Under the pieces are notes generated by a model. That model did not search any database. It was not told where the DNA came from and worked only from the letters and a program-made list of their open reading frames with translations. A program made the position numbers and the translations under genes. Below are positions 1,489 through 23,877 of a stretch of DNA of 28,495 nt, one piece after another; the stretch's first letter is position 1, and each line of letters opens with the position of its first letter. Location of the stretch: IMG/VR virus record IMGVR_UViG_3300037086_000028, positions 1-28,495 of that record. One strand, given 5' to 3'. This DNA is from a virus.

Positions 1489-2388
1489 CTATTCAATAAC
1501 AGCTCCAATTATAGTTCGTTGCACCTTGTCACTTATTGAAATCCTAAATACCCTGTCTTGGCTGCTTCCTAATCGTCTCCAAATAGCCCTTGTGCCATAT
1601 TCCCCTAAACTACCTATGCTCGCTTCATAATCGCTCGACCATGTATATCCACCATCATCTGACCATGATAAATGAACTTTAGGAGTTCTTTTTGTCGTAT
1701 AAAGATTATTAGATGAAATCGTTATATTGTCTGTTTTGCTGACAGACGGTAATGCGGAAAAAACAGCCGAAGCAATGGCATGGTTGGCCCCGTTGGGTAA
1801 AGTATAGACTCCATCTGCATTAATATGAACTTTTGTACCACCATTCCAGCTTAAATATTTATTACTAGAAATGCTGTCCCTAAGTTCTAAAAGAGTAACT
1901 TGTGCGTTTCTATTCGGGTTTGTTGCGCCAGATAGAAGAACGACAAACTCTCCGTTGTTGGAAGATAACTCGGAATTACAATCATAAGTAGCATGGTAAA
2001 TATTATCAATATATACCGATACGACTGCGTGTGAATCTCCTAGCGATCGATCAACATTAAACCCCCACTCTTGATCTGAAGAATTACTTTTAACCAGTCC
2101 TGCACCGACAAGGATATAATTATTCGTTGCATCTGCAATATATAACCCCTCCGAAGCTAAAGCTATTCCTAGCTCCCAATTACTAGAAGCGTATCCAACA
2201 GCGAAACAGTCTCTATTAGCCAATGTTCCTAAAGAAGAAAAATTAGTCTTGACTTTGATAGTGAACCTTACGGGGGGTGTCTGCAATAACCACATTAATC
2301 CAGCAACACTATTCGTGCCGTCAGCTAAACTCCCGGTGTCAAACTCAAATCCGTCTGCTATTATTTGAACTGTTCCTGTCCCGTCCAT
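1489..2388 (-). CDS. Lectin-like protein carrying the detached C-terminal module of a gp10-like stabilisation protein
   Basis: 299 aa. The start ATG overlaps the upstream stop by one base (TAATG), so translation is probably coupled. Residues about 30-175 look like a beta-rich jelly-roll (FTIKVKTNF, AVVSVYIDNIYHATYD, VTLLELRDS), possibly LamG/concanavalin-like. Residues 235-299 contain LSWSDDGGYTWS, GEYGTRAIWRRLG and DRVFRISISDK. I know this block as the usual C-terminus of phage gp10/Phage_stabilise-type proteins. The gp10-like protein encoded at 5837-8080 lacks it. A role in the tail hub or a fibre is inferred. The N-terminal fold assignment is weak; the C-terminal resemblance is strong. Confidence 0.7.
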   Translation of the reverse strand: MDGTGTVQIIADGFEFDTGSLADGTNSVAGLMWLLQTPPVRFTIKVKTNFSSLGTLANRDCFAVGYASSNWELGIALASEGLYIADATNNYILVGAGLVKSNSSDQEWGFNVDRSLGDSHAVVSVYIDNIYHATYDCNSELSSNNGEFVVLLSGATNPNRNAQVTLLELRDSISSNKYLSWNGGTKVHINADGVYTLPNGANHAIASAVFSALPSVSKTDNITISSNNLYTTKRTPKVHLSWSDDGGYTWSSDYEASIGSLGEYGTRAIWRRLGSSQDRVFRISISDKVQRTIIGAVIE

Positions 2389-3632
2389 TAAATGCTTTTT
2401 ATCCCCGGTGGCCTGTAATTGTCTTTTAAATTAATTAAATGCGCTGTTGTCCAGCATACCTTTTGATCATTTGGCTGCGTGGTGTAAAGTCGCATTGCCT
2501 GAAACCTTACTGGCGTGTCAATGTATTGCGCCCAACTCTGGTCTGTGTAATAAAGAAAGCTGTTCTCATTCCAGAAAGATTTATGTGTTGGGTCTTGAAA
2601 GGCGCCACGGCCATCGGTGGATGGTACTTGAATAAAAGCATATCCTCCCGGAGCCAGCACGCGATAAAGTTCTTTCATGGTGTGTAATGGATCTTTGAGA
2701 TGTTCAAAAACATCATTGGCCTTAATAACCCCAACAGAACTATCATCGAAATGTCCCCATTTATGGTTCAAATCCATTATTATGTCGGCGTCTTTTAAAT
2801 CTAATGATGTGTATCGTTCATCCCTGTTTAATCTTGCGCCCAGTTCAATACAGCGTAAACCTGTATTTTTAGCCCAACATAAGGCCATGGCTTCAATGTA
2901 TTTATCGTAAAGAGGGTAAACTCCGTCTTGGATTTCCTTATTATAGGTCAGCCATGAATTATCACCGTGTACCCTGTAAACATAAAGCCCTTTATCGATG
3001 TGGTAAAATTTGGTTTCAAGGTATAACCTGCACATCAAATCTTGATCGTCCAAAACTTTCAGCTCTGGATTATAACCGCCTACCTTTTCGTAAACGTCTT
3101 TTCTGAAAGCCCTTAAGTGGTCGGGAGCGTACCAGATTCTTGAAACTGCTGCCGGAGAATGATCGAAGGAAAGAGGCTCATCAAGTAAATGTCCTTTGTA
3201 ATCCGTTTCTCTATACTGCCATCCATGTGCAAGATTGTATTTTTCTCTTTTACCTAATTCCATATCGGTAATGAGAGTATTGGAATAAACAAATCCTACC
3301 TCTGGATTTTCAAATGCTTTTCTAACTTCTTCAACAGCAGAAGGACAAAGAAGGTCGTCCCAATCGACTTCCATTAATATTTCATTTGAGCAATTTAAAC
3401 AGGCAAAAGATTTAAGTTCTCCGATACAACCAGTCTTATTATAGTAAACAATTTTTATCCTCTTGTCTTCTTTAAATGCTGTTAAATCAGCTTGCAACCC
3501 CTCACCGTTAGCAACGAGTACCCATTCCCATTCCCGACAAGTTTGTTCTTTTAGTGAAGCATAGAGGTCATGCAAAAAAGATATTTCTTTTTTATGAAAC
3601 GGAGTAAAGATGCTAACCTTCATTATTCGCAT
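2388..3632 (-). CDS. Fused family 2 glycosyltransferase and SAM-dependent methyltransferase-like protein
   Basis: 414 aa. The start at 3632 follows AAAGGA at short spacing; a second ATG three codons on is possible. Residues 5-225 are a GT-A fold family 2 glycosyltransferase: FTPFHKKEISFL at the N-terminus, the metal and nucleotide-sugar site DWDD at 90-93, and GGYNPELKVLDDQDLMCRL at 185-203. Residues 258-400 resemble the small class I methyltransferases, with DVFEHLKDP at 307-315, YRVLAPGGYAFIQVP and PTHKSFW at 348-354. The glycine-rich SAM loop is degenerate (ELGARLN), so activity is uncertain. The fusion suggests transfer and methylation of a sugar on host or virion glycan. It lies between a membrane protein and a lectin-like protein at the distal end of the virion operon. 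Confidence 0.75.
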   Translation of the reverse strand: MRIMKVSIFTPFHKKEISFLHDLYASLKEQTCREWEWVLVANGEGLQADLTAFKEDKRIKIVYYNKTGCIGELKSFACLNCSNEILMEVDWDDLLCPSAVEEVRKAFENPEVGFVYSNTLITDMELGKREKYNLAHGWQYRETDYKGHLLDEPLSFDHSPAAVSRIWYAPDHLRAFRKDVYEKVGGYNPELKVLDDQDLMCRLYLETKFYHIDKGLYVYRVHGDNSWLTYNKEIQDGVYPLYDKYIEAMALCWAKNTGLRCIELGARLNRDERYTSLDLKDADIIMDLNHKWGHFDDSSVGVIKANDVFEHLKDPLHTMKELYRVLAPGGYAFIQVPSTDGRGAFQDPTHKSFWNENSFLYYTDQSWAQYIDTPVRFQAMRLYTTQPNDQKVCWTTAHLINLKDNYRPPGIKSI

Positions 3633-3644
3633 AAAATCCTTTCT

Positions 3645-4061
3645 TTAAAATTCTATTATTAATCCTGCATTGCAATTATTCCAAACGGCTACACCTTCAA
3701 TACCGATAAATCCTATCTGCCACCACCTACGGGCAGGAATATCAAATTTATATGAAAATACTTCAAAATGATAAACTGGTTTTAAGGACATGGCTATTAA
3801 TCCGTGAGCAACTATTCCTAAAGGAATTAAAATATTAACTTCATCAAGAGAAGGATGTTTACCAAGCAAAGGATTTATTTCCGTACGGCCTTTTTGAACA
3901 AGATTCCTTGTTTGTCCCCAATCAATGACGGCTAAAACAATAAAAGTTCCTTCTAGTGTCGTATCCGCCCAGCTCCAGTTTTGAGCAAATTTATATTCTG
4001 CTTGACTCACACTGGAACAAATAAGTAAGAATATAAAAACAAATAGTACGATTTTCATCAT
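3645..4061 (-). CDS. Small membrane protein with signal sequence, function unknown
   Basis: 138 aa, ATG at 4061 after AAGGAAAAAG. Residues 1-21 are a signal peptide or anchor (MMKIVLFVFIFLLICSSVSQA). At least two further hydrophobic segments follow: residues about 38-46 (GTFIVLAVI) and 80-92 (LIPLGIVAHGLIA). The run DWGQTRNLVQKG followed by EINPLLGKHPS resembles a recurrent phage membrane protein with a D-W-x-Q-T and N-P-[IL]-L-G signature, whose function I do not know. It sits 10 bp after the collagen-like fibre gene and 12 bp before the glycosyltransferase fusion, so it is co-transcribed with them. Modification of the host envelope during infection is possible but not shown. Confidence 0.7.
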   Translation of the reverse strand: MMKIVLFVFIFLLICSSVSQAEYKFAQNWSWADTTLEGTFIVLAVIDWGQTRNLVQKGRTEINPLLGKHPSLDEVNILIPLGIVAHGLIAMSLKPVYHFEVFSYKFDIPARRWWQIGFIGIEGVAVWNNCNAGLIIEF

Positions 4062-4071
4062 TCTTTTTCCT

Positions 4072-5835
4072 TTAAGAAGTAGCGTACGTAAATATTAAAG
4101 GAACATCCCATCCTTTAGTTCCTGATGTTGTCCAGCCTGTACTGGAATTATTTTTATAAAAGTATAAAGAAACACCCGCGCCTGACGTAAGAAATACGTA
4201 AATATTCGATGATGGACCTATAACTCCACCATTATCATAAGCTCTCGGTATCGGTATAAAATATCCGGTTGAGGGTTTAAGATAAGAAGGCAACTCACCT
4301 ATTCCCAAGGTAGCAGAACTACCTCCGCCAGACGGTCCAGACATCGCAGGAACGGATAATACTACTATCTTATTTGCAAGAGTAAAGCTGACAACTACAG
4401 TCGGAGTTGTCGAAAAACCCGTTGCAGTAAGAGTATAGGTACCTGTTGCGTTATATTCCCAAATCCACGATGCCGTCCCTGTACCACCGGAAGGATTAAT
4501 GCAAGTAAGTGTTAAGACACTTTTATACACTGAAGAAGGAACACCAAGCATCGCCCGAATAGTATTTCCACCAGATGTCTTGACAGTCACGATCCCTGTA
4601 CTCTGATTATTGATTATAACTGACCAGCCTGCTTGTAATGTGCTTGCGACAGGTAAAACAACATATTGTTCCTGTGTACCAGTGAACAACTGTATATAAG
4701 ACGAATTTACATCAAGAGTTGTCGTTCCTGTAGCGGTTACGGTGCTTTGTCCACCAACTACACCCGGAGTCCCTTGAACACCTTGATTACCGTCTGGCCC
4801 TTGATTCCCTATATCACCCTGATGTCCCTGATTACCTTGAACCCCTGTAGCTCCTTGACTCCCTTGATTACCCTGTGTTCCGGGGTTTCCTTGTGAACCA
4901 ACATCCCCTTGTGGGCCAACATTACCTTGATTACCTAAACTCCCTTGATGTCCCTGATTCCCTTGTGTACCGGGATTCCCTTGACTACCTATATCCCCTT
5001 GCGGGCCTTGCGAACCCGTAGAACCCGTAGAACCTTGTTTGCCTTGATTCCCTTGTGTACCGGGATTCCCTTGACTACCTATATTCCCTTGCGGGCCAGC
5101 GGCTCCTGTGTTTCCTGTGGCTCCTTGTGAACCCGTATTCCCAATTACTCCTTGGCTTCCCGTTGAACCTTGTGCGCCTTGATTCCCTTGTGGGCCTGTG
5201 GCTCCCTGCGCCCCCTGCGCCCCTTGCGCTGCAAGTAGATTGAAATGAGTTGTATCCGAGCCGGGGGCAGTTGTTGAGTAATTAATATTTACAATACAGA
5301 CATAATAATTATTTGCATTGCTTACGGCATCGCCAACTACATAATTACTTCCAGTAGCCCATGCACCGCGCTGATTTAATCCTGTTCCTGCTGTACCCTG
5401 AACCCCTTGACGACCTTGATTACCCTGTGGGCCTTGACCTCCTGTTGCTCCCTGTGTTCCCTGATTACCGGGATTTCCTTGTACGCCAGCAGTACCATTA
5501 TTGCCTTGAAACCCCTGTGGGCCGTGGTCGCCTTGTGTCCCTTGATTGCCAGCCCCTTGAGGGCCTTGTGTTCCGTCTTTGCCTTGATTACCCTGAAACC
5601 CTTGACTGCCGGGTGAACCTTGAGAACCCTGATTGCCTATTCCCTGTGGCCCTTGAGAACCGGGATTCCCTTGAAACCCTTGAAACCCTCTGGCCCCCTG
5701 TGCGCCTTGTGTCCCCTGATTGCCTATTCCCTGTGGCCCTTGACTGCCGGGATTCCCTTGTGGCCCCATGATACCGGCCCCCTGTGGCCCTTGAGGGCCG
5801 GGTATTTGAAGCCAACTTGTAAGACTTATACTCAT
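4072..5835 (-). CDS. Collagen-like tail fibre protein with embedded carbohydrate-binding-like domain
   Basis: 587 aa. The ATG lies one base past the upstream stop, and the GAGGT Shine-Dalgarno is formed by the last codons of that gene. Two Gly-x-y blocks, residues about 12-151 and 203-361, are unusually rich in Gln at the third position (GPQ, GNQ, GSQ) and should form a triple-helical shaft. Between them, residues 157-202 (RGAWATGSNYVVGDAVSNAN, then YYVC) look like a CBM5/12-type carbohydrate-binding module. Residues 362-587 form a beta-rich C-terminal head. Collagen-like shafts are common in phage fibres. A trimeric adsorption fibre beside the tail genes is the best reading. The repeats leave long stop-free frames on the opposite strand, which are not genes. 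Confidence 0.85.
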   Translation of the reverse strand: MSISLTSWLQIPGPQGPQGAGIMGPQGNPGSQGPQGIGNQGTQGAQGARGFQGFQGNPGSQGPQGIGNQGSQGSPGSQGFQGNQGKDGTQGPQGAGNQGTQGDHGPQGFQGNNGTAGVQGNPGNQGTQGATGGQGPQGNQGRQGVQGTAGTGLNQRGAWATGSNYVVGDAVSNANNYYVCIVNINYSTTAPGSDTTHFNLLAAQGAQGAQGATGPQGNQGAQGSTGSQGVIGNTGSQGATGNTGAAGPQGNIGSQGNPGTQGNQGKQGSTGSTGSQGPQGDIGSQGNPGTQGNQGHQGSLGNQGNVGPQGDVGSQGNPGTQGNQGSQGATGVQGNQGHQGDIGNQGPDGNQGVQGTPGVVGGQSTVTATGTTTLDVNSSYIQLFTGTQEQYVVLPVASTLQAGWSVIINNQSTGIVTVKTSGGNTIRAMLGVPSSVYKSVLTLTCINPSGGTGTASWIWEYNATGTYTLTATGFSTTPTVVVSFTLANKIVVLSVPAMSGPSGGGSSATLGIGELPSYLKPSTGYFIPIPRAYDNGGVIGPSSNIYVFLTSGAGVSLYFYKNNSSTGWTTSGTKGWDVPLIFTYATS

Positions 5836-5836
5836 A

Positions 5837-8080
5837 TTATACCTCTTGTACTGTTAAACTCAAAACGTAAGTGCCATCGGCATTAGATGCACTATTTAAA
5901 GTAACTCCCGTAATATTCACTACGGGTGTTATGGATTGAGAAGTTCCCGTTATAACACCTTCAACTTCATCTAAGCCCTGCCCTGTTTCAATATCCACTT
6001 GCAGCTTTGAAAAGAAAACTGTGTCTAAATTCTGCTTATCTGCGAGATGTTGCGCTACTCTTGTGGAAATAATAGGCACACCATCATCATCAAGATAATC
6101 AGCTGATAGCTCGTAAATGTTTCCATTGTTCCTGTAATCCGAGATGTAATGTTTATTGTTAAAAAAGCAGTAACATTCTCCAATGTGACGGTTTAAAACA
6201 TACCGCCCTTCACCGGAAAAATAAGATCGTTCATGCCACATCTTCGTGGTCGTATCATAAACATACGTTATGCTAGGGAAGTTAAAGACTACGAATGTAT
6301 GACCGCCCTCTGAATAAGAATAAGACGTTACTTCACTCAAATCTCCCATTTTAGAAATCTGGTAGTTAATCGGAGTTGGTGAAATTACGATTGGTGTAAA
6401 TCCGTTCAACGCGACAATCCCGATGAACTCTCCGGCGTTTCCAGACCGTTGAGAAGCTACCCAAAAAATAGTATTGTCTGCCATGACAACAGAAAACGGT
6501 GATACAGTTCCATAATCTACTATTGCCCCGGGAATCCTCTGAAAAGGAAATCCATTGGCTGTTGCTACTCCTGCGTCATACCAAACTTCGGAAGTGTATT
6601 CTTTTATAAACCAAACCTGTTGATGTGAATTAACTACTGCTTGGAGTTTGTCCGGTGCGCCGCTTACGGGTGACGTAGCTAATGCGCTCCATGTTGAACC
6701 GTCATAAAGATTAGAACAGGCGGCGTTCATTGTGTTTGTTCCAATGCCTACAAAATAACCGTCTATGTAAGTTATCTGTGCTATTCCTGTTGAGGAAATG
6801 CCTGAAACGTCAGTCTTATAGTTTAGAGTTTTATAGAACTGGCAACATTCATTGACTTCTTTAGCGTCAAGGAACATCCCCTCTGTTAAACTGTCTATTG
6901 CACCCCATGTCCACGGCGAAGTTGTGACCAGAAAAAGCTCGAAAGAATTATATAAAGCGGTGAGATTTATTGTCGCTTGTTCAGAGTATACAGTCAGATA
7001 AGTAGTGGTCGCTGTCGCCTTAAAATTAGTCGTGTATTTTGTATATTGTGTGTCAGTAATAAGGCCGGAATCATATAAGGAATTATCTCCAACGGAATTT
7101 CCGATCTTGACTCTGCCGCCTGCCGCGCTGCCACTTTGAAAATAAAAAGACAGCATATAAGAACTGCCGACTATTGTTGAAAACGGTTGTGAAGCTGAAC
7201 CTATCGCAGCACCGGAATTAGTTACCGTCAGGTCGTTCCCTGAAATAGTCAGTGTCGAACCACCGGCTGTCCAGGCAATCGCTGTGTTTGAAACCAAGAT
7301 ATTGCCCTGTGGAACATCTAATGAAGGGTCGGTAAGCCATGTGTAAGAGTAAGGCAAAAAGGCATTTGTAAGAAGATTTCCTTTGCTGTAATAATTTACT
7401 CCCCCTATATTGAGGGCAAAGCCTCCCATACCACCAGCTCCGGCGGCAGACTTCATTACTCCTGTTAAGGTAACTGAATTTATCACCCCGGACGCTTCTC
7501 TTGCCGGAGAATTGTAAAAATCAACATATTTACCAGAAGCAGATGAAACGTAATTTGAGGTATCTTCCGTTTCCTCGTTTATCATTAAATAGTTTTGAGT
7601 GCCGGAAGAAGGTGTAAGCTGGACTAGATTATCTCCGATAGGTCTTAATATTTCGGAAGTAATAAGTGATCCTGTGATGTTGGTGAAAGCCCCTGTCTTT
7701 ACATTATAAATATAACCGCCTACGTTATCGGCTATACATATCTGATTACCGCCGACACCTTGCGAAGAAAGGCCATTGTCCTGCATTGATACGATACCTG
7801 AATCAGTCGAAATCGTACCAAGAGAATTTGAGACAGTTCCAGAACCGTCAATAGAGTATAAATTCTCTCCGGCAACAACATACATCAGTCCGTTGAACGG
7901 GTGCATACAACGGATTTTCTTTCCCGCTGTCGTGAAGTATTTAAAGCCCGGTGTCCCTATCAAAGCAATAACAGACTTAGAATCTTCCGAATTAAGTTCG
8001 GGAAAGTAATTTATTGTGCGCTGACAGTCGATATTTTTTGACCTGCTCTGGTATGAGGGGCCTAAAAATGGAATCTGCAT
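5837..8080 (-). CDS. gp10-like packaged-DNA stabilisation / tail hub protein
   Basis: 747 aa, ATG at 8080 after AGGAG. The opening MQIPFLGPSYQSRSKNIDCQ and INYFPE is the hallmark of the P22 gp10/Phage_stabilise family, which plugs the portal and forms the tail hub. Family blocks continue: NGLMYVVAGENLYSIDGSG (residues 63-81), DGYFVGIG (440-447), WFIKEYTSEVWYDAG (490-504), VYDTTTKMWHERSYF (607-621) and HYISDYRNNGNIYELSADYL (644-663). Two oddities stand out. Residues about 145-395 hold an extra segment with a jelly-roll look (YMLSFYFQSG, YTKYTTNFKATATTTYLTV). After DIETGQGLDEVEG (696-708) the normal WSDDGG C-terminal module is missing, replaced by about 39 unrelated residues. P22 gp10 is about 470 aa. 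Confidence 0.85.
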   Translation of the reverse strand: MQIPFLGPSYQSRSKNIDCQRTINYFPELNSEDSKSVIALIGTPGFKYFTTAGKKIRCMHPFNGLMYVVAGENLYSIDGSGTVSNSLGTISTDSGIVSMQDNGLSSQGVGGNQICIADNVGGYIYNVKTGAFTNITGSLITSEILRPIGDNLVQLTPSSGTQNYLMINEETEDTSNYVSSASGKYVDFYNSPAREASGVINSVTLTGVMKSAAGAGGMGGFALNIGGVNYYSKGNLLTNAFLPYSYTWLTDPSLDVPQGNILVSNTAIAWTAGGSTLTISGNDLTVTNSGAAIGSASQPFSTIVGSSYMLSFYFQSGSAAGGRVKIGNSVGDNSLYDSGLITDTQYTKYTTNFKATATTTYLTVYSEQATINLTALYNSFELFLVTTSPWTWGAIDSLTEGMFLDAKEVNECCQFYKTLNYKTDVSGISSTGIAQITYIDGYFVGIGTNTMNAACSNLYDGSTWSALATSPVSGAPDKLQAVVNSHQQVWFIKEYTSEVWYDAGVATANGFPFQRIPGAIVDYGTVSPFSVVMADNTIFWVASQRSGNAGEFIGIVALNGFTPIVISPTPINYQISKMGDLSEVTSYSYSEGGHTFVVFNFPSITYVYDTTTKMWHERSYFSGEGRYVLNRHIGECYCFFNNKHYISDYRNNGNIYELSADYLDDDGVPIISTRVAQHLADKQNLDTVFFSKLQVDIETGQGLDEVEGVITGTSQSITPVVNITGVTLNSASNADGTYVLSLTVQEV

Positions 8081-8088
8081 CCTAACTC

Positions 8089-8814
8089 CTAAAAAGTATC
8101 AGACAAAATATTATAAGAGTTATCTCTCTTTACGCCCGGAATATCGCAAGAAGCCGGAGGTGTAGTTGAAACAATTTTTTGAATTGTTCTTAATGACTCT
8201 TCGGCTAGATACAATATGTCTTGTGGAATACTGGTCTCTAACGGCTTGAATTTTCTCCATATCCTTGTTGCCAGATTATAGACCAGAGCTTCATTATACA
8301 TAGGCTCAAACGTCACGTTATCGGTAATTGTGGTAAAATCTGTTAAAGCCTTAAATGAATGTAAATGAAGCGTATAAGCCATGTCTGGTATGGGATAAAG
8401 ATAAATCGTCCCTAATTGGGCTGCCTGTTGAGTAACTCCGGGGTCGTAAGCCAAGTATTCAGGTACACTCGAAGAAACAGTCTTGTCCTCAAAGTTGTCG
8501 TACTGCTCTACGGTGCATATATCGACACGATGATCTACATTGCTCAAATCCCTGACATAACAAGACTGGATGGAAATTGGTTTGACTGTATTAAGCTCCC
8601 CACCAGTTCCTATTGTGTAGGAAGCTTTATTTGCAGTCAAAGCCAAGTCCTGAACGGTAGAAGCCCTAACAATAAGCTTTTGGGCTGACCATTGCTCAAG
8701 CATTGCGTTCATAGAACTAAGACAAATGCTTATTTCCCTGGGAACGGGCTGGTCGTCCAATCCGATTGCGCCTATAATGTGCAGGGCATCTTTTACGATG
8801 TCTCTTGCGATCAT
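8089..8814 (-). CDS. gp4-like tail accessory / DNA stabilisation protein, paralogue B
   Basis: 241 aa, ATG at 8814 after AGGGGG. The N-terminus (MIARDIVKDALHIIGAIGLD, then LSSMNAMLEQWSAQ) and the later EYLAYDPGVTQQAA and YNEALVYNLATRIWRKF match the P22 gp4-like family. That family sits under the portal as the first tail-completion ring. The upstream neighbour (8823-9803) is a clear paralogue with the same blocks in the same order. This copy is the compact form: where the paralogue has an extra domain, it has only a short loop (PDMAYTLHLHSF). It lies between that paralogue and the gp10-like gene, which matches the P22 order gp4 then gp10. Confidence 0.8.
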   Translation of the reverse strand: MIARDIVKDALHIIGAIGLDDQPVPREISICLSSMNAMLEQWSAQKLIVRASTVQDLALTANKASYTIGTGGELNTVKPISIQSCYVRDLSNVDHRVDICTVEQYDNFEDKTVSSSVPEYLAYDPGVTQQAAQLGTIYLYPIPDMAYTLHLHSFKALTDFTTITDNVTFEPMYNEALVYNLATRIWRKFKPLETSIPQDILYLAEESLRTIQKIVSTTPPASCDIPGVKRDNSYNILSDTF

Positions 8815-8822
8815 AAGACCCC

Positions 8823-9803
8823 CTAAACTACTTTAGGAGTATCGACATTATTGTTCTTCATCCACAGTCTCTGGTGGCGGAGTTCCATCTTCTGAAGGTT
8901 AATAGTCTTGATCGTCCCCGCAGCGATAGCGACTATATCAGAAGGTATCTCTTTGTTGGCTCCATAGAAGTTTCTCCAAATTCTGATAGCCAGATTATAA
9001 GCTAAAGCTTCGGAATACATGGTATCAAAAGTAACCGTGTCCACAGTCGTAGAAAAAACAACAAGAGGTGAACTTGCTCTCATTATCAGAGTGCTTGCTG
9101 TTGATAACGCTACTGTATGTGTGGAGCTGCCGGCGCTTGACGTGTTTATAGCCGTGCCGCCTAATGTTAGGGACACTTCAAACTGACCGGTAGTGAATCC
9201 AGCAGCTATGATATAATACGGAACGCCTACGGTAAGTCCTGCGGGTAAACCACCAGTCGTTGCGAATACAACGACCTGATTTATCGAATATCCATGTGTG
9301 GCGCAAGTAATAACAGCCGGAGTAGCGTTTGATATGGTACAAGCTTGCGTGGAGCTTGAATTAGTAGGTGGTATAGGATAGAGGCTAATCGTTCCTACCG
9401 GAGCTGCTTGCTGTGCTATACCGGGGTCATAGGCCAGATACACAGGCAAACCAGTTGCTGTTAGTTTATCAGTAAAGCGCGAATATTCCCTCATGGTGAT
9501 AATGGTGAGAACCGAATCCACGCCAGCCGATGTCCTTATGATACCGCTATCAATATCAATGGGTTTCGCCGAGGTGATGTCGCCGCCACTCGGCCCTATT
9601 GTATAGGTAGATTTATTGGCAGTAAGGATTTGAGATATTTCCACTGTTTCCCTTATCATCAGGTCCTGTGCCGACCATTGTTCTATAAGCCTGTTGATAG
9701 CGTCAAGGCATATAGTCATTTCACTCGCTGTGGGGGCTTCATCAATGGCTATCGCTCCGATGATTCCCATAGCTTCCTTTATAATGGTTGTTACTGTAGC
9801 CAT
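8823..9803 (-). CDS. gp4-like tail accessory protein, paralogue A with an inserted beta domain
   Basis: 326 aa, ATG at 9803; AGGAGG overlaps the preceding stop. Residues 1-146 and 233-326 carry the gp4-family blocks (AMGIIGAIAIDE, INRLIEQWSAQDL, YLAYDPGIAQQAA, SEALAYNLAIRIWRNF) shared with the next gene. Residues about 147-232 are extra. They read VFATTGGLPAGLTVGVPYYI followed by TTGQFEVSLTLGGTAI, a beta-sandwich-like module I recognise from many unrelated phage structural proteins. The insertion falls in the loop after LYPIPP, so the core fold should be intact. Two adjacent gp4-like genes suggest a duplicated ring protein or a division of labour between tail ring and adaptor. Confidence 0.8.
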   Translation of the reverse strand: MATVTTIIKEAMGIIGAIAIDEAPTASEMTICLDAINRLIEQWSAQDLMIRETVEISQILTANKSTYTIGPSGGDITSAKPIDIDSGIIRTSAGVDSVLTIITMREYSRFTDKLTATGLPVYLAYDPGIAQQAAPVGTISLYPIPPTNSSSTQACTISNATPAVITCATHGYSINQVVVFATTGGLPAGLTVGVPYYIIAAGFTTGQFEVSLTLGGTAINTSSAGSSTHTVALSTASTLIMRASSPLVVFSTTVDTVTFDTMYSEALAYNLAIRIWRNFYGANKEIPSDIVAIAAGTIKTINLQKMELRHQRLWMKNNNVDTPKVV

Positions 9804-11023: not shown

Positions 11024-11397
11024 TTTCCATCAGCTACTGTTTTATTTTCAGTCATTAATCTTATCCTTTTAGATTCCTCTTCTGTGAGAGGTCTTATCTC
11101 TCTACAAGGATTCCCCGCTGCTATTGTGTTAGATAAAATGTCTCTTGAAACTACACTTCCCGCCCCTATCACTACGTTGTCTCCAATCGTCACACCGGGA
11201 AGGATTATACATTTTGCGCCTATGTAAACATTATTACCGATAACTATTTCAACTCGCTCTCCGTTGTAAAAACTTATCGGGCAATGGGTTATGATTAAAC
11301 TGTCTGCGCCGATAATAACATTGTCACCTATCGTTACGATGTCGTCTCGGAAAGATTCAATGTGTCCCCAACATCCGAAGTTTTTACCTACTTTCAT
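11020..11397 (-). CDS. Second left-handed beta-helix acyltransferase (short)
   Basis: 125 aa, ATG at 11397, overlapping the aminotransferase stop by 4 bp. Hexapeptide repeats run from VTIGDNVIIGADSLIITHCP through VEIVIGNNVYIGAKCII and LPGVTIGDNVVIGAGSVVSR. IAAGNPCREIRPL at the end is the usual G-N-P-[AC] closing turn of this family. It lacks the N-terminal helical region of full-length enzymes, so it is a near-minimal beta-helix. The two acyltransferases are not simple duplicates and may act on different positions of one sugar. It ends with a charged tail (TEEESKRIRLMTE). Confidence 0.8.
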   Translation of the reverse strand: MKVGKNFGCWGHIESFRDDIVTIGDNVIIGADSLIITHCPISFYNGERVEIVIGNNVYIGAKCIILPGVTIGDNVVIGAGSVVSRDILSNTIAAGNPCREIRPLTEEESKRIRLMTENKTVADGK

Positions 11398-12017
11398 TGA
11401 TACACCTTGAACTGTGAGAGGTCTGGATATGTGATCTCCAAATCTTCATTGGCTTTCTTGTTCCCTTGCATATCGTAAAAACCGTTCATCAGTAAAAGCC
11501 CTCTTGCCGCAAGTTCGGGAATCATGTAAAAATTATATCCTGTCATGTCGAAATTATCATCATTGTACGAACACTCTCTGCGACCCGAAAACCTCATTCT
11601 TTTAAACCAGAGATAAGCTTTATAATTGTCAGTAAGAATTGCACCACCTTTGGAAAGTTTTAAATGCTTGTATGGCCCGGTGAACGATATGCACATAAAA
11701 GTTTCAGGAAGATACATATCAGCGGTTAATCTTAATGCGCTGTCAATAACCCTTGTAGGCTTTAGCTTGTAAGCTCCCTTTAATGTAGTCCCGCTGACTG
11801 GTTCAAATTTTACTTTCCCTCCGGCATGGATTATTTCACATGGAACACTTGGATAAGTTCGTGCGGGAATTGTAATCTCTTTCCCTTCTATTCCCTCGTA
11901 TTTAAGCGCAAGAAACAAGGCATTGCTCTGATTATCAACGGCAACAGCGTATGGACTGCCAGTGTAAGCGCAAAGCGCATCCTCAAAATCAGCCGTTATC
12001 TTATGAACATTTACCAT
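11394..12017 (-). CDS. Minimal DegT/DnrJ/EryC1-family PLP sugar aminotransferase
   Basis: 207 aa from the ATG at 12017, which has AAGGA upstream; a TTG two codons earlier is less likely. Family landmarks are in order: NALFLALKYEGIEGKEITIP (residues 32-51, PLP phosphate region), the Asp of VIDSA at 92, and ISFTGPYKHLKLSKGGAILT, where K117 is the likely Schiff-base lysine. GYNFYMIPELAARG (160-173) is the usual dimer/active-site segment. Full enzymes are about 370 aa; this one lacks part of the middle and the whole C-terminal small domain. It would aminate a nucleotide keto-sugar if active. Alternatively it is a degenerate binding protein. It overlaps the genes on both sides. Confidence 0.75.
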   Translation of the reverse strand: MVNVHKITADFEDALCAYTGSPYAVAVDNQSNALFLALKYEGIEGKEITIPARTYPSVPCEIIHAGGKVKFEPVSGTTLKGAYKLKPTRVIDSALRLTADMYLPETFMCISFTGPYKHLKLSKGGAILTDNYKAYLWFKRMRFSGRRECSYNDDNFDMTGYNFYMIPELAARGLLLMNGFYDMQGNKKANEDLEITYPDLSQFKVYQ

Positions 12018-12768
12018 CCTCAATGTCCTTAGCCATCTGTTCTACGATTGAAAAAGCGTTACCCGCTTCCTGATTGGCTTTTAAAGCCCTCAATTTAGCG
12101 TCCAGAGTTCCTTTAAACGGGTATATCCCCCAATGGGTTATCTCGCATATAGGGTCAACCCAAACATGAAGCCCCGCCTCTCTCATGGAGTCCGTAAAGC
12201 AGAAATCCATGCCATTGAAACTATGATCCCGTATTTCATTCCCAAAAAAGGCATAGACTCTTTTCTCTCCGTACCAAATCCACCTGTCAGGGAAAGCCTC
12301 TACCCATCTCTTTAAAGCCCTCTTGCTGATCTTCAAAAAACCTGCCGGAACTCTTTTTGCTTCCAAAAGACAATTACCATCCGGCAGCATTTTCCCTAAA
12401 TGAGAACCGTCATCTGCCGTACAGAGAATAACCGGAAAATCAATCTTGTCGATACAGCACTTACGATATACGCCGCACACAATATCTTCTTCATGGAAAA
12501 GAAGCCTGATAAGGTGTTCGGGATTCCATGATTCGTCAGAATCAATCATAAGAATATCTGTGGCATCTTCCTCTTCCATGAAGTTAGTCAAAAGCTCATT
12601 GATACACAGTTCCATGTGAAAGTTTCCTGAAACCAGCCGATAATCAAATTTAATGCCTAGTCTTTCAAGGGCTATGGTTGAAGCAACAATAGCGTTACAA
12701 TACTCAAGATAAGCCTGGTGCTTATAAAAGAATGTCGCTATGATTACTTTTCCGGTATATGGTTTCAT
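12001..12768 (-). CDS. Phage glycosyltransferase, GT-A type
   Basis: 255 aa, ATG at 12768 after AGGAAG. The core is ATDILMIDSDESWNPEHLIR (residues 69-88), with the D-x-D pair D76/D78 that holds metal and nucleotide sugar. DIVCGVYRK (95-103) follows, as in Anp1/GT2-like phage and bacterial enzymes. RVPAGFLKISKRAL and FCFTDSMREAGLHVWVDP complete the acceptor half. It is the first gene of the sugar cassette and lies straight after the capsid and decoration genes, behind a hairpin. Targets could be capsid protein, tail protein or host LPS. Nothing in the sequence decides this. Confidence 0.75.
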   Translation of the reverse strand: MKPYTGKVIIATFFYKHQAYLEYCNAIVASTIALERLGIKFDYRLVSGNFHMELCINELLTNFMEEEDATDILMIDSDESWNPEHLIRLLFHEEDIVCGVYRKCCIDKIDFPVILCTADDGSHLGKMLPDGNCLLEAKRVPAGFLKISKRALKRWVEAFPDRWIWYGEKRVYAFFGNEIRDHSFNGMDFCFTDSMREAGLHVWVDPICEITHWGIYPFKGTLDAKLRALKANQEAGNAFSIVEQMAKDIEDGKCS

Positions 12769-15386: not shown

Positions 15387-17686
15387 TGTATCGGTATATC
15401 TCCTGCGGGCTGATTTCCCTGTGGCATACCTTGAGGCTCTTGCACTTGCGGTGGAGGCATACTGTGTATCTCTGCAAGAATCTTTAAAATCTCTGACCTT
15501 AATCCGGTATCAGTTTCTTTTGCTTCCTTATACTGTTTTATTAATTCGGTCTTGGCCTTAATCATATCAAGTGCTTTGTCAGCAATAGCTTTCTGCTGCT
15601 TAAGTTCCTCTGTCTTGGCTTTCTGCATAAGCAACTGGACTTGCGGCGGTATCGGCATTGGTGCTGGCGGCTCTTCACCCGGTGCTACTTTCTTCATGCC
15701 CGGAGGTAGTGTCTTTTCAAGTCTGCGAGCTATTTCTTCCGCGCCTAAGAAGTCCATATTCTTGACTAACAGGTCTCCGGCGAATCTCTTAATTTCAGGC
15801 CAGTTCTGCGAAAGCATTAAAAGATTCTGCGCTGATTCCTGACGTTGTGTCGTATATGAAGGCCCGACTGAAATTATAACTCCGTAATGACCTTCTTGAA
15901 TATCGTTGTATTTCGCCTTTTTCCCATAGGCGTTCATAAGTTTTCGTAATTCTGTCTTATCAAGTCCCTGATACCTCTGCGGGTCGTCAACGATTACTTT
16001 AAGCGCTTTGTCTGCCGTGGTGTTAATCGGAACCCATCTTTCTACACCGTCAACATCCCTTAATCGAGCGTCACGTTCTGTATCGTATATTTCTGGAATC
16101 ATCTCGTTAATGATCTGTCCACAATGGCAAATACTCTTTGCTAGGTTGTCCATAAAACAGAATGTCGCTATGTCGCTAGGTTTCTGTGCGGCGATAATAG
16201 CCGAACCCGATCTTTCCGGCCCTGTCTGTCCTACGTCCCTCTGGCCCATTCCAATAGATTTCCTGACCAGACCTTCAGCACGTTCTATTTCCGCAAACAA
16301 AGCAACGGGGGCGTCACCCATTGAAACTCTTTGTGGCGGGGGAATAGCGACTCCTTGCACCACATCAGGGTTGTATTTCATATAAGGAAGATTGTCTGTA
16401 TTTGCTAAAGCAAAGTCCTTCTCAAAACCATCTACCTGTTTCGGAGTTACCATCCACGGCGACTTCGGGGCCAAATGAACCACCTCTGCGGCGGAAGTAA
16501 GAGAATAATTAAAAAGCCTTTGCGGGTCTTTTGCGAATCTTAAAAGCCCTCTAATATAAGACTTGCCTTCAATATTGACTCTTTTTCCCGTAACCATTAC
16601 TAAAGGGATATATTTACCTGCAACATCCTCTCCTTCTAATCCACCTGATAAAATTTCGGAGGCCGTAAGAATCCAATGTTTTACTTTCGGCATATCGACT
16701 TTTCTTATCTTTACTATTTCTGGACGGGGCTCCAACTTGAATTGTTCTAATGGTGTCTGTTGCTGATTACTTTGTGGCGGAGGAGCATTTAAATCGGGAG
16801 GCGCACCTTGAGGCGAAGGAGAAAAGGGGACACCGGAAGGCGTTGGCACTCCCTGTGGTACTTGTGGTTGCATTTGCGGCATCAAAGCCTGAAGTTTAAT
16901 CTTATGCTCTTCCCATTCTTGAATTAATTTGTCTGCTTCTGACTTCTCAAGTACGGAGCCATCGTCCATTAAACACATTTCTTTTTCTTGTTTAACTACC
17001 TCAAAATATTCCGCGATTGTTACCTGATCTTTATCATACCAATGCTCCATGTTAAGCCCCTGGCCGTGTTTTATTTCTTTGCCGGGGACTACAGCATCTG
17101 GGTATCTTTTTTCAAATTCCTTCCGTGTTAGTTTTTCAAGAACAAATCCATGCCTGGCATCGGCGTAAACCATATCTTTAGATTCGCAATCCATGTAAAC
17201 CAAAAACGGATTGTCGATGGATTCTAAATAGATTTCCTGTAAGAACGGATTTTCATCAGTGTAACGGGTCAAGACTCTCCACGCCCCGTATCCGCAGGTT
17301 GTCTGCATTTCAGAAGCGTAATCATAAATAGATTCTGCGTTTGAACGGTACTCAATGTCGGCTATCATACCCTGACGGATTCTAGCCATATTGTAATCAG
17401 CTTTGGAGTCCACTGGTTTGACGTTGATTCTTGCCCTGTTGTGTCGCTGGTCGCCAGTTACTTGGTCAACAAACTGCGGCAGAAGATTAGCTTGAAGAAT
17501 GGGTCGGTCTTTTTTCTTTCTACGGCTGACTTCGGCGGCATCCCACTGGTCAATGCCCCAAGCAAACTTCAAGTCCTCGATGGCGGCAATCCGGTTATGG
17601 TCATCAGCCTTTACATCCGTATCAAGTTTCTTTATGACATCTTCAAGGAAATCTTGCTCTTTAATTTGTTTGTTTTCTTTCGGCAT
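15383..17686 (-). CDS. Portal protein, P22 gp1-like
   Basis: 767 aa, near P22 gp1 (725 aa). The ATG at 17686 has GAGG seven bases upstream. Conserved family blocks include LKFAWGIDQWDAAEVSRRKK (residues about 39-58), RPILQANLLPQFVDQVTGDQ, INVKPVDSKADYNMARIRQG, ASEMQTTCGYGAWRV and VGQTGPERSGSAIIAAQKPS. A Pro/Gln-rich insert (MPQMQPQVPQGVPTPSG and onward, residues about 260-310) is unlike P22 and probably a disordered loop. The C-terminal region is helical and ends in a Pro/Gln-rich tail, matching the barrel position. The dodecameric ring is the DNA channel and binds terminase and the gp4-like protein. The gene order terminase, portal, scaffold supports it. Confidence 0.9.
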   Translation of the reverse strand: MPKENKQIKEQDFLEDVIKKLDTDVKADDHNRIAAIEDLKFAWGIDQWDAAEVSRRKKKDRPILQANLLPQFVDQVTGDQRHNRARINVKPVDSKADYNMARIRQGMIADIEYRSNAESIYDYASEMQTTCGYGAWRVLTRYTDENPFLQEIYLESIDNPFLVYMDCESKDMVYADARHGFVLEKLTRKEFEKRYPDAVVPGKEIKHGQGLNMEHWYDKDQVTIAEYFEVVKQEKEMCLMDDGSVLEKSEADKLIQEWEEHKIKLQALMPQMQPQVPQGVPTPSGVPFSPSPQGAPPDLNAPPPQSNQQQTPLEQFKLEPRPEIVKIRKVDMPKVKHWILTASEILSGGLEGEDVAGKYIPLVMVTGKRVNIEGKSYIRGLLRFAKDPQRLFNYSLTSAAEVVHLAPKSPWMVTPKQVDGFEKDFALANTDNLPYMKYNPDVVQGVAIPPPQRVSMGDAPVALFAEIERAEGLVRKSIGMGQRDVGQTGPERSGSAIIAAQKPSDIATFCFMDNLAKSICHCGQIINEMIPEIYDTERDARLRDVDGVERWVPINTTADKALKVIVDDPQRYQGLDKTELRKLMNAYGKKAKYNDIQEGHYGVIISVGPSYTTQRQESAQNLLMLSQNWPEIKRFAGDLLVKNMDFLGAEEIARRLEKTLPPGMKKVAPGEEPPAPMPIPPQVQLLMQKAKTEELKQQKAIADKALDMIKAKTELIKQYKEAKETDTGLRSEILKILAEIHSMPPPQVQEPQGMPQGNQPAGDIPIQ

Positions 17687-23144: not shown

Positions 23145-23877
23145 TGGCTGGCTCCCATTCTTTAAGCATTTCTATGTTTTGTATTGTCTTATCCGATACT
23201 TTACCAGAAAGGGGGTGTGGTGCTTTTAGTTCATCATCCCAACAACCCTTATTCAACCATGTTGCCGGATTTTTCCATTCAGGTCTAAACTCTCCGTTTG
23301 ATTTTTCTCTCCATTCAATTTGTTTTTTAATTGATGAAATAATAATTTCAATATCCGGTCTATTACCGTTCAACTTTTTCCAGCATTTATAAGCATATTT
23401 TTTTTCAACCTTAGATGGATAATTTTTCCAAAAAATTAAAAACTCGTCAGAGTATTCTTTCAGGGAAGGGGAATCAGGAATCAGGGAAGGGGAATCAGGA
23501 ATCAGCACGGTTGATTCGGGAAAATCCTGTTTAAACACAGTGTTTATCTGGTGTTGATTTGGTTCTGGGATTGAACTTTCAAGTTCTTTTACATGGGGAT
23601 TTTGATGTTTATTAAATTTTAGTATCTGTATGTAATTATTATTATTTACCATATACACCAAAATAAATTCTTTATCAGATAATTGCTTTATTAATTTATC
23701 AATATTACAATTATCATATGGTAATACTTCTGCCTTAATTTTTCTTGGCCGATATTCAAGTCGTCCTTCTCTATCGGCAAGGCACCATAAACCGGAAAAA
23801 AGGATGCGCGCAAGAGGATCACAATCCGCTAATTCCTCGTTTTTGAAGTATCCAGGTTTTATGTTTCTTGCCCTCAT
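23122..23877 (-). CDS. Phage replication initiator, O-like winged-helix protein
   Basis: 251 aa, ATG at 23877 after GAGGA. MRARNIKPGYFKNEELADCD followed by PLARILFSGLWCLADREGRL and RPRKIKAEVLPYD is the well-known N-terminal winged-helix domain of phage replisome-organiser proteins. A linker (residues about 97-140) includes a 7-residue tandem duplication, IPDSPSL twice. The C-terminal part (FLIFWKNYPSKVEKKYAYKC, then WKNPATWLNKGCWDDE) is the second conserved region. It should bind an origin, possibly within or near its own gene, and recruit the loader encoded next. It is preceded by a strong hairpin. Confidence 0.8.
   Translation of the reverse strand: MRARNIKPGYFKNEELADCDPLARILFSGLWCLADREGRLEYRPRKIKAEVLPYDNCNIDKLIKQLSDKEFILVYMVNNNNYIQILKFNKHQNPHVKELESSIPEPNQHQINTVFKQDFPESTVLIPDSPSLIPDSPSLKEYSDEFLIFWKNYPSKVEKKYAYKCWKKLNGNRPDIEIIISSIKKQIEWREKSNGEFRPEWKNPATWLNKGCWDDELKAPHPLSGKVSDKTIQNIEMLKEWEPANERQNKI
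23462..23503. repeat. Two tandem 21-bp units inside the replication initiator gene
   Basis: Two perfect copies of a 21-bp unit beginning AGGGAAGGGGAATC lie head to tail. They encode IPDSPSL twice in the linker. Replication genes of lambdoid phages often carry their origin iterons in this place, so it is a candidate origin element as well as a coding duplication. Confidence 0.6.

Follow-up and report, generated by a model that had tools for sequence, protein, structure and literature searches.

The gp10-like nozzle gene of a short-tailed phage is split, with its C-terminal module on a second gene

Nozzle proteins of the gp10 type are ring proteins that seal and open the DNA channel. The nozzles of P22 (gp10) and Sf6 (gp8), classified as Hc3, Phage_stabilise and phrog_578, resemble the locus described here in their propeller body, in their place after the adaptor gene and in the sequence of the C-terminal module. 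P22 gp10 is one chain, however, as are the 321 intact homologues among the matches listed, whereas our locus encodes two chains. The closest solved sequences to the two pieces are the needle head protein of Pam1 (7EEQ) and the stabilization protein of Pan3 (9VYG), which differ from them in being single chains of 442–446 residues. In the nozzles of T7 (gp12) and SU10 (gp17), N- and C-terminal segments together make up the adaptor-facing domain (PMC6702177; PMC9509320). These nozzles are also comparable in having accessory domains at the propeller exits, but the domains are inserted in cis and no separate gene is involved. A full-text literature search found no report of gp10 or tubular B genes being split; it covered open-access articles only and is no proof of absence.

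The stretch of DNA analysed here (the window) is a 28,495-base fragment of a short-tailed phage and a linear metagenomic record. On the minus strand it features the gene order typical of a P22 gp10-type nozzle locus, namely terminase, portal, scaffold, coat protein, adaptor-like genes and nozzle. All genes of the stretch are encoded on this strand, with gaps of 1–27 bases or overlapping start and stop codons, and are free of disabling stops. Single-sequence searches in IMG/VR yielded no close relatives of the terminase or of the two proteins of interest, P0002 and P0001. The features of the locus are given in Table 1.

Table 1 Coordinates of the two nozzle pieces and of the genes between them
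Feature	Position	Strand	Basis
P0002, gp10-like nozzle gene	5837–8080	minus	phrog_578, N-part HMM
Nozzle N-terminal body part 1 (P0002 residues 1–160)	7601–8080	minus	N-part HMM positions 2–154
Domain inside the gp10 body (P0002 residues ~161–430), weakly DUF642-like	6791–7600	minus	Not found in aligned unsplit relatives
Nozzle body part 2 (P0002 residues ~431–703)	5972–6790	minus	phrog_578 to position 400; HMM 134–395 of 397
P0002 C-terminal tail and stop, non-homologous after DIETGQGLDEVEG	5837–5971	minus	Unaligned to family
Collagen-repeat fibre gene	4072–5835	minus	Pfam Collagen 2.4e-40; phrog tail fibre families
Small protein, N-terminus hydrophobic and signal-like	3645–4061	minus	Sequence
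Glycosyltransferase-2/methyltransferase fusion	2388–3632	minus	PF00535 2.7e-9, PF13489 8.6e-9
P0001	1489–2388	minus	N-terminal domain and detached gp10 C-module
P0001 N-terminal part, beta-rich, possible lectin-like receptor-binding domain	1693–2388	minus	Low-confidence model
Detached gp10 C-terminal module (P0001 residues 233–299)	1492–1692	minus	phrog_578 402–467; C-part HMM

For the profile comparison, an N-part and a C-part HMM were built from thirteen intact relatives, which were cut at the junction. P0002 has 747 aa and matches phrog_578 (head closure Hc3) with E = 6e-77, in profile positions only up to 400 of 486. It covers positions 2–395 of 397 of the N-part HMM and has, by sequence, the propeller body of a P22 gp10-type nozzle. 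Its terminal ~40 residues do not align to the gp10 family, in agreement with the 39 unrelated residues described in an earlier note on this DNA. The GC3 of this tail is 0.26, compared to 0.40 for the gp10 body. The C-terminal module, absent from the P0002 chain, was found on P0001 instead. Residues 233–298 of P0001 match phrog_578 positions 402–467 (E = 1.5e-12), and the module matches positions 3–68 of 75 of the C-part HMM (E ~1e-24). The profile search proposed in the earlier note thus gave abutting ranges for both proteins and confirmed its claim that gp10 is split, with the C-terminal module on another gene. We regard the split of gp10 in the window as real with high confidence.

The two pieces also tile unsplit relatives without overlap. 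In tblastn comparisons, the match of P0002 ends at 23270 and that of P0001 begins at 23263 in Rhodoferax phage P26218, while the matches abut at 16031 and 16032 in PBR31 and at 29158 and 29156 in MW202674. On the solved Pam1 protein (7EEQ) the pieces occupy residues 121–299 and 340–425. The earlier note had placed them 3.4 kb apart; the split stands, but the gp10 body and the C-terminal module are ~4.3 kb apart, since the interruption also includes the tail of P0002 and the N-terminal part of P0001.

The module of P0001 keeps 22 of the 26 columns conserved in 90% of the homologues, which argues that it is still functional; a strongly conserved proline (SDP) is replaced by K. In the P0001 model the pLDDT is 84–92 from residue 241 onward. 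An Asp-box-like WSDDGGxTW motif was rejected as the sole cause of the match: sialidases match this motif of P0001 at E 0.1 to 0.3, whereas the match to gp10 is specific and spans all 66 residues of the module. The start of P0001 has a weak Shine-Dalgarno sequence and translation probably relies on the overlap with the upstream stop, so that equal dosage with P0002 is not assured.

A ~270-residue insert in the body of P0002 represents a second accessory domain, which is not present in the nearest relative (L265). Its DUF642 match (E = 0.0024) is below the Pfam cut-off. Enlarged bodies were also observed in several unsplit gp10 homologues.

Between the two pieces lie a collagen fibre gene and a glycosyltransferase fusion, as the earlier note had recognised. 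The small protein between these two genes belongs to no family, with neither a Pfam match above the cut-off nor a PHROG match. The fusion protein shows 42% identity over 98% to a protein of Synechococcus phage S-CRM01. Glycosyltransferase-like genes recur within the podovirus structural module, in L265 (6965–8200) and L127 (6777–7466) as well as in the window, and the gene of L265 is, by eye, apparently fused to a methyltransferase. Convincing repeats flanking the cassette, which would mark mobility, were not found; those present were internal to the collagen or were short chance pairs. Interruption of the gene by a self-splicing intron was rejected, as no Rfam match was obtained in the window at gathering thresholds.

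The description of P0001 as lectin-like in the earlier note was not borne out. Residues 1–200 are without Pfam support, and for the N-terminal part no sequence homologue, no PDB sequence match and no Pfam match above the cut-off were obtained. The model of this protein is of low confidence, and its fold matches of the LNS/LamG type are insignificant (E 0.1 or worse); neither a significant profile match nor a significant fold match to a LamG/ConA-like lectin was obtained. The N-terminal part is nevertheless a probable receptor-binding domain, based on its position and on the fusion of a fibre to the same module in L114.

Homologues were collected from IMG/VR, GTDB genomes and named phages, and every open frame was scanned with both HMMs. 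The sample consists of the best 80 matches per search, in part ranked by full-length similarity, and is clade-skewed. Among the matches listed, the module is in the same chain as the body in all 321 distinct intact genes; the family does not normally end where P0002 leaves it. A second complete gp10 gene was not found within the 28.5-kb record fragment. Only three loci among the matches listed have the two parts on separate open frames, namely the window, L114 (also listed as L171) and L152 (also listed as L321). L291, which has only the N-part, and L195, with only the C-part, were rejected as further splits, because the genes are cut by contig ends.

The junction loop is an insertion hot spot for accessory domains. 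Among the 321 listed intact genes, the junction comprises at most 5 residues in 140, and 181 have inserts of 6–300 extra residues (6–30 in 17, 31–60 in 119, 61–150 in 42 and more than 150 in 3). When examined by eye, these inserts appeared to include TESGDxL-type repeats, a domain rich in glycine (L206) and longer stretches that look beta-rich (L127, L215). Dockerin-like repeats (LGDVDNTGTIVLADATTVLNYVAG) were seen, again by eye, in the junction loop of L190 and L191. In the model of an unsplit relative (L017; mean pLDDT 87.9, TM 0.83–0.84 to P22 gp10), the junction is a loop at residues 394–406, located between strands 383–393 and 407–413. The strand before this loop stays on P0002, and the next one is the first strand of the module. 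Judged from this strand order, the C-terminal module probably maps to the adaptor-facing domain.

L114 is located on a 38,550-base contig, where the only gp10 matches are 6–405 and 402–473; no intact gp10 copy was found on it. The pieces are separated by a 101-aa gene, followed by two tail fibre genes, the first of phrog_4176 and the second of phrog_4950, with the gp10 module fused to the latter. In this last protein, fibre homology extends to residue 187, just before the start of the gp10 module at 202–206. The same two fibre genes are known from Xanthomonas phages, and in phage CP2 they are adjoining and free-standing (gp28/gp29); the pair is absent from the window. L114 shows the insertion process caught, with the donor type still recognisable. 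In L152, the module forms a separate 81-aa ORF with little else in the protein, and its start lies in an ATGA overlap with the N gene. The latter has a large accessory extension before its stop, with SPRY and GH16-like matches below or near the cut-off. The split of L152 could be a frameshift error, a reading countered by the ATGA overlap, which is the usual form for coupled phage genes.

In a FastTree phylogeny of the body, the window groups with the unsplit L265 and L136 (supports 0.974 and 0.998), and L114 groups with the unsplit L198 (0.904). As each of them stands beside unsplit relatives, these two splits arose separately. The tree position of L152 is poorly supported because the contig contains its N gene only in part. 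The same kind of break thus occurs independently in at least one, and probably two, other phage lineages.

According to the earlier note, either a cassette was inserted into an ancestral gp10 gene or the module was copied onto a new gene. Insertion is favoured by the junction hot spot, the parallel in L114 and signals of co-descent, and it agrees with the lack, among the matches listed, of homologues that normally end here and with the lack of a second gp10 in the record fragment. The mean identity to the homologues is 0.346 for the window body and 0.498 for the window module, and intact homologues of equal body divergence have equal module divergence (L260 0.35/0.50; L261 0.36/0.51). The module has therefore diverged as much as expected if its age equals that of the P0002 body, which fits a split in place. 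Five of 20 rare residues of the window module are common to L136, its unsplit sister in the body tree, and to L266, the second-best body match, while 276 of the 321 listed homologues share none or one. Both body parts have a GC3 of 0.40, and the module has 0.41, a value that rests on ~70 codons and proves little alone; the GC3 of the cassette genes and of the tail of P0002 is 0.23–0.35. Taken together, matched divergence, rare residues and GC3 favour the split in place, and the recognisable two-gene fibre cassette of L114 supports insertion over copying. It is improbable that the module was copied from the gp10 of another phage onto a new adhesin gene, with P0002 losing its own module. Such fusions are evidently feasible, as seen in L114, but copying accounts poorly for a divergence that matches co-descent with the body and for rare residues common to the sister L136, and cassette insertion gives the loss from the body and the gain of the module in one step, again as in L114.

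We propose that a receptor/glycan cassette entered the loop between the last body strand and the C-terminal module and thereby split the gp10 gene. The propeller body, which lines the DNA channel, would remain with P0002, and P0001 would consist of the C-terminal module and, fused to it, the probable receptor-binding domain. After translation, this module would dock on P0002 in trans and complete the domain through which the nozzle is joined to the adaptor ring. The N-terminal domain of P0001 would be placed where other phages carry cis inserts, and six adhesin copies would be displayed at the junction loop. We infer docking in trans, the six-fold stoichiometry and receptor binding. A two-chain nozzle of this kind, with gp10 split by the cassette and the module supplied in trans as a fusion to an adhesin, is likely in our view. 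Trans complementation is the simplest reading, given that no listed intact homologue is without the module, that the window no longer has it in cis and that L152 encodes it bare. We put forward more tentatively that two-chain nozzles may be a recurrent natural form, in which cassettes repeatedly enter one loop, the adaptor-facing end is supplied by a receptor-binding protein and receptor contact is mechanically coupled to channel closure.

The P0001 module might instead be a docking peg only, which holds the adhesin on the adaptor or nozzle, with P0002 working without a module and its own 40-residue tail filling the gap. The presence of this replacement tail fits such a role, as does the observation that reliable alignment of gp10 with T7 gp12 is confined to the central propeller region (PMC10386132). 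However, the tail is unrelated to the module and shorter, the module is kept in every one of the listed intact homologues, and the bare module of L152, an ORF without an adhesin, does not readily fit the role of an adhesin anchor; we consider a mere peg unlikely. That the arrangement is an artefact of chimeric assembly, or that the gene is simply broken in a decayed prophage, appears very improbable. The window is a single metagenomic record and a linear fragment, and the frameshift reading of L152 would point in the same direction, but the compact layout on one strand without disabling stops, the retained conserved columns of the module and the recurrence of the same architecture in the unrelated contig L114 argue against it.

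If the nozzle is indeed split in trans at one loop, with an adhesin covalently attached to the second piece, the locus would provide a natural test of how channel opening is coupled to receptor binding. It would also show a route by which podoviruses swap host-range modules, and annotation pipelines would miss the nozzle C-terminus in such genomes.

Further genes of the window, all on the minus strand, deserve mention. Two adjoining adaptor-like genes (8089–8814 and 8823–9803) both match phrog_12985 (1e-34 and 6e-25) and resemble the dual tubeA arrangement described in Sulfitobacter phage PhiGT1 (PMC10386132). Between the coat and adaptor genes, a DegT/DnrJ/EryC1 aminotransferase-like gene was found at 11394–12023 (3.5e-15). 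The gene at 1–1461, which is cut by the window edge, encodes a beta-helix tailspike-like protein (Beta_helix 2.6e-13), whose N-terminus is signal-peptide-like, which is odd in a virion protein.
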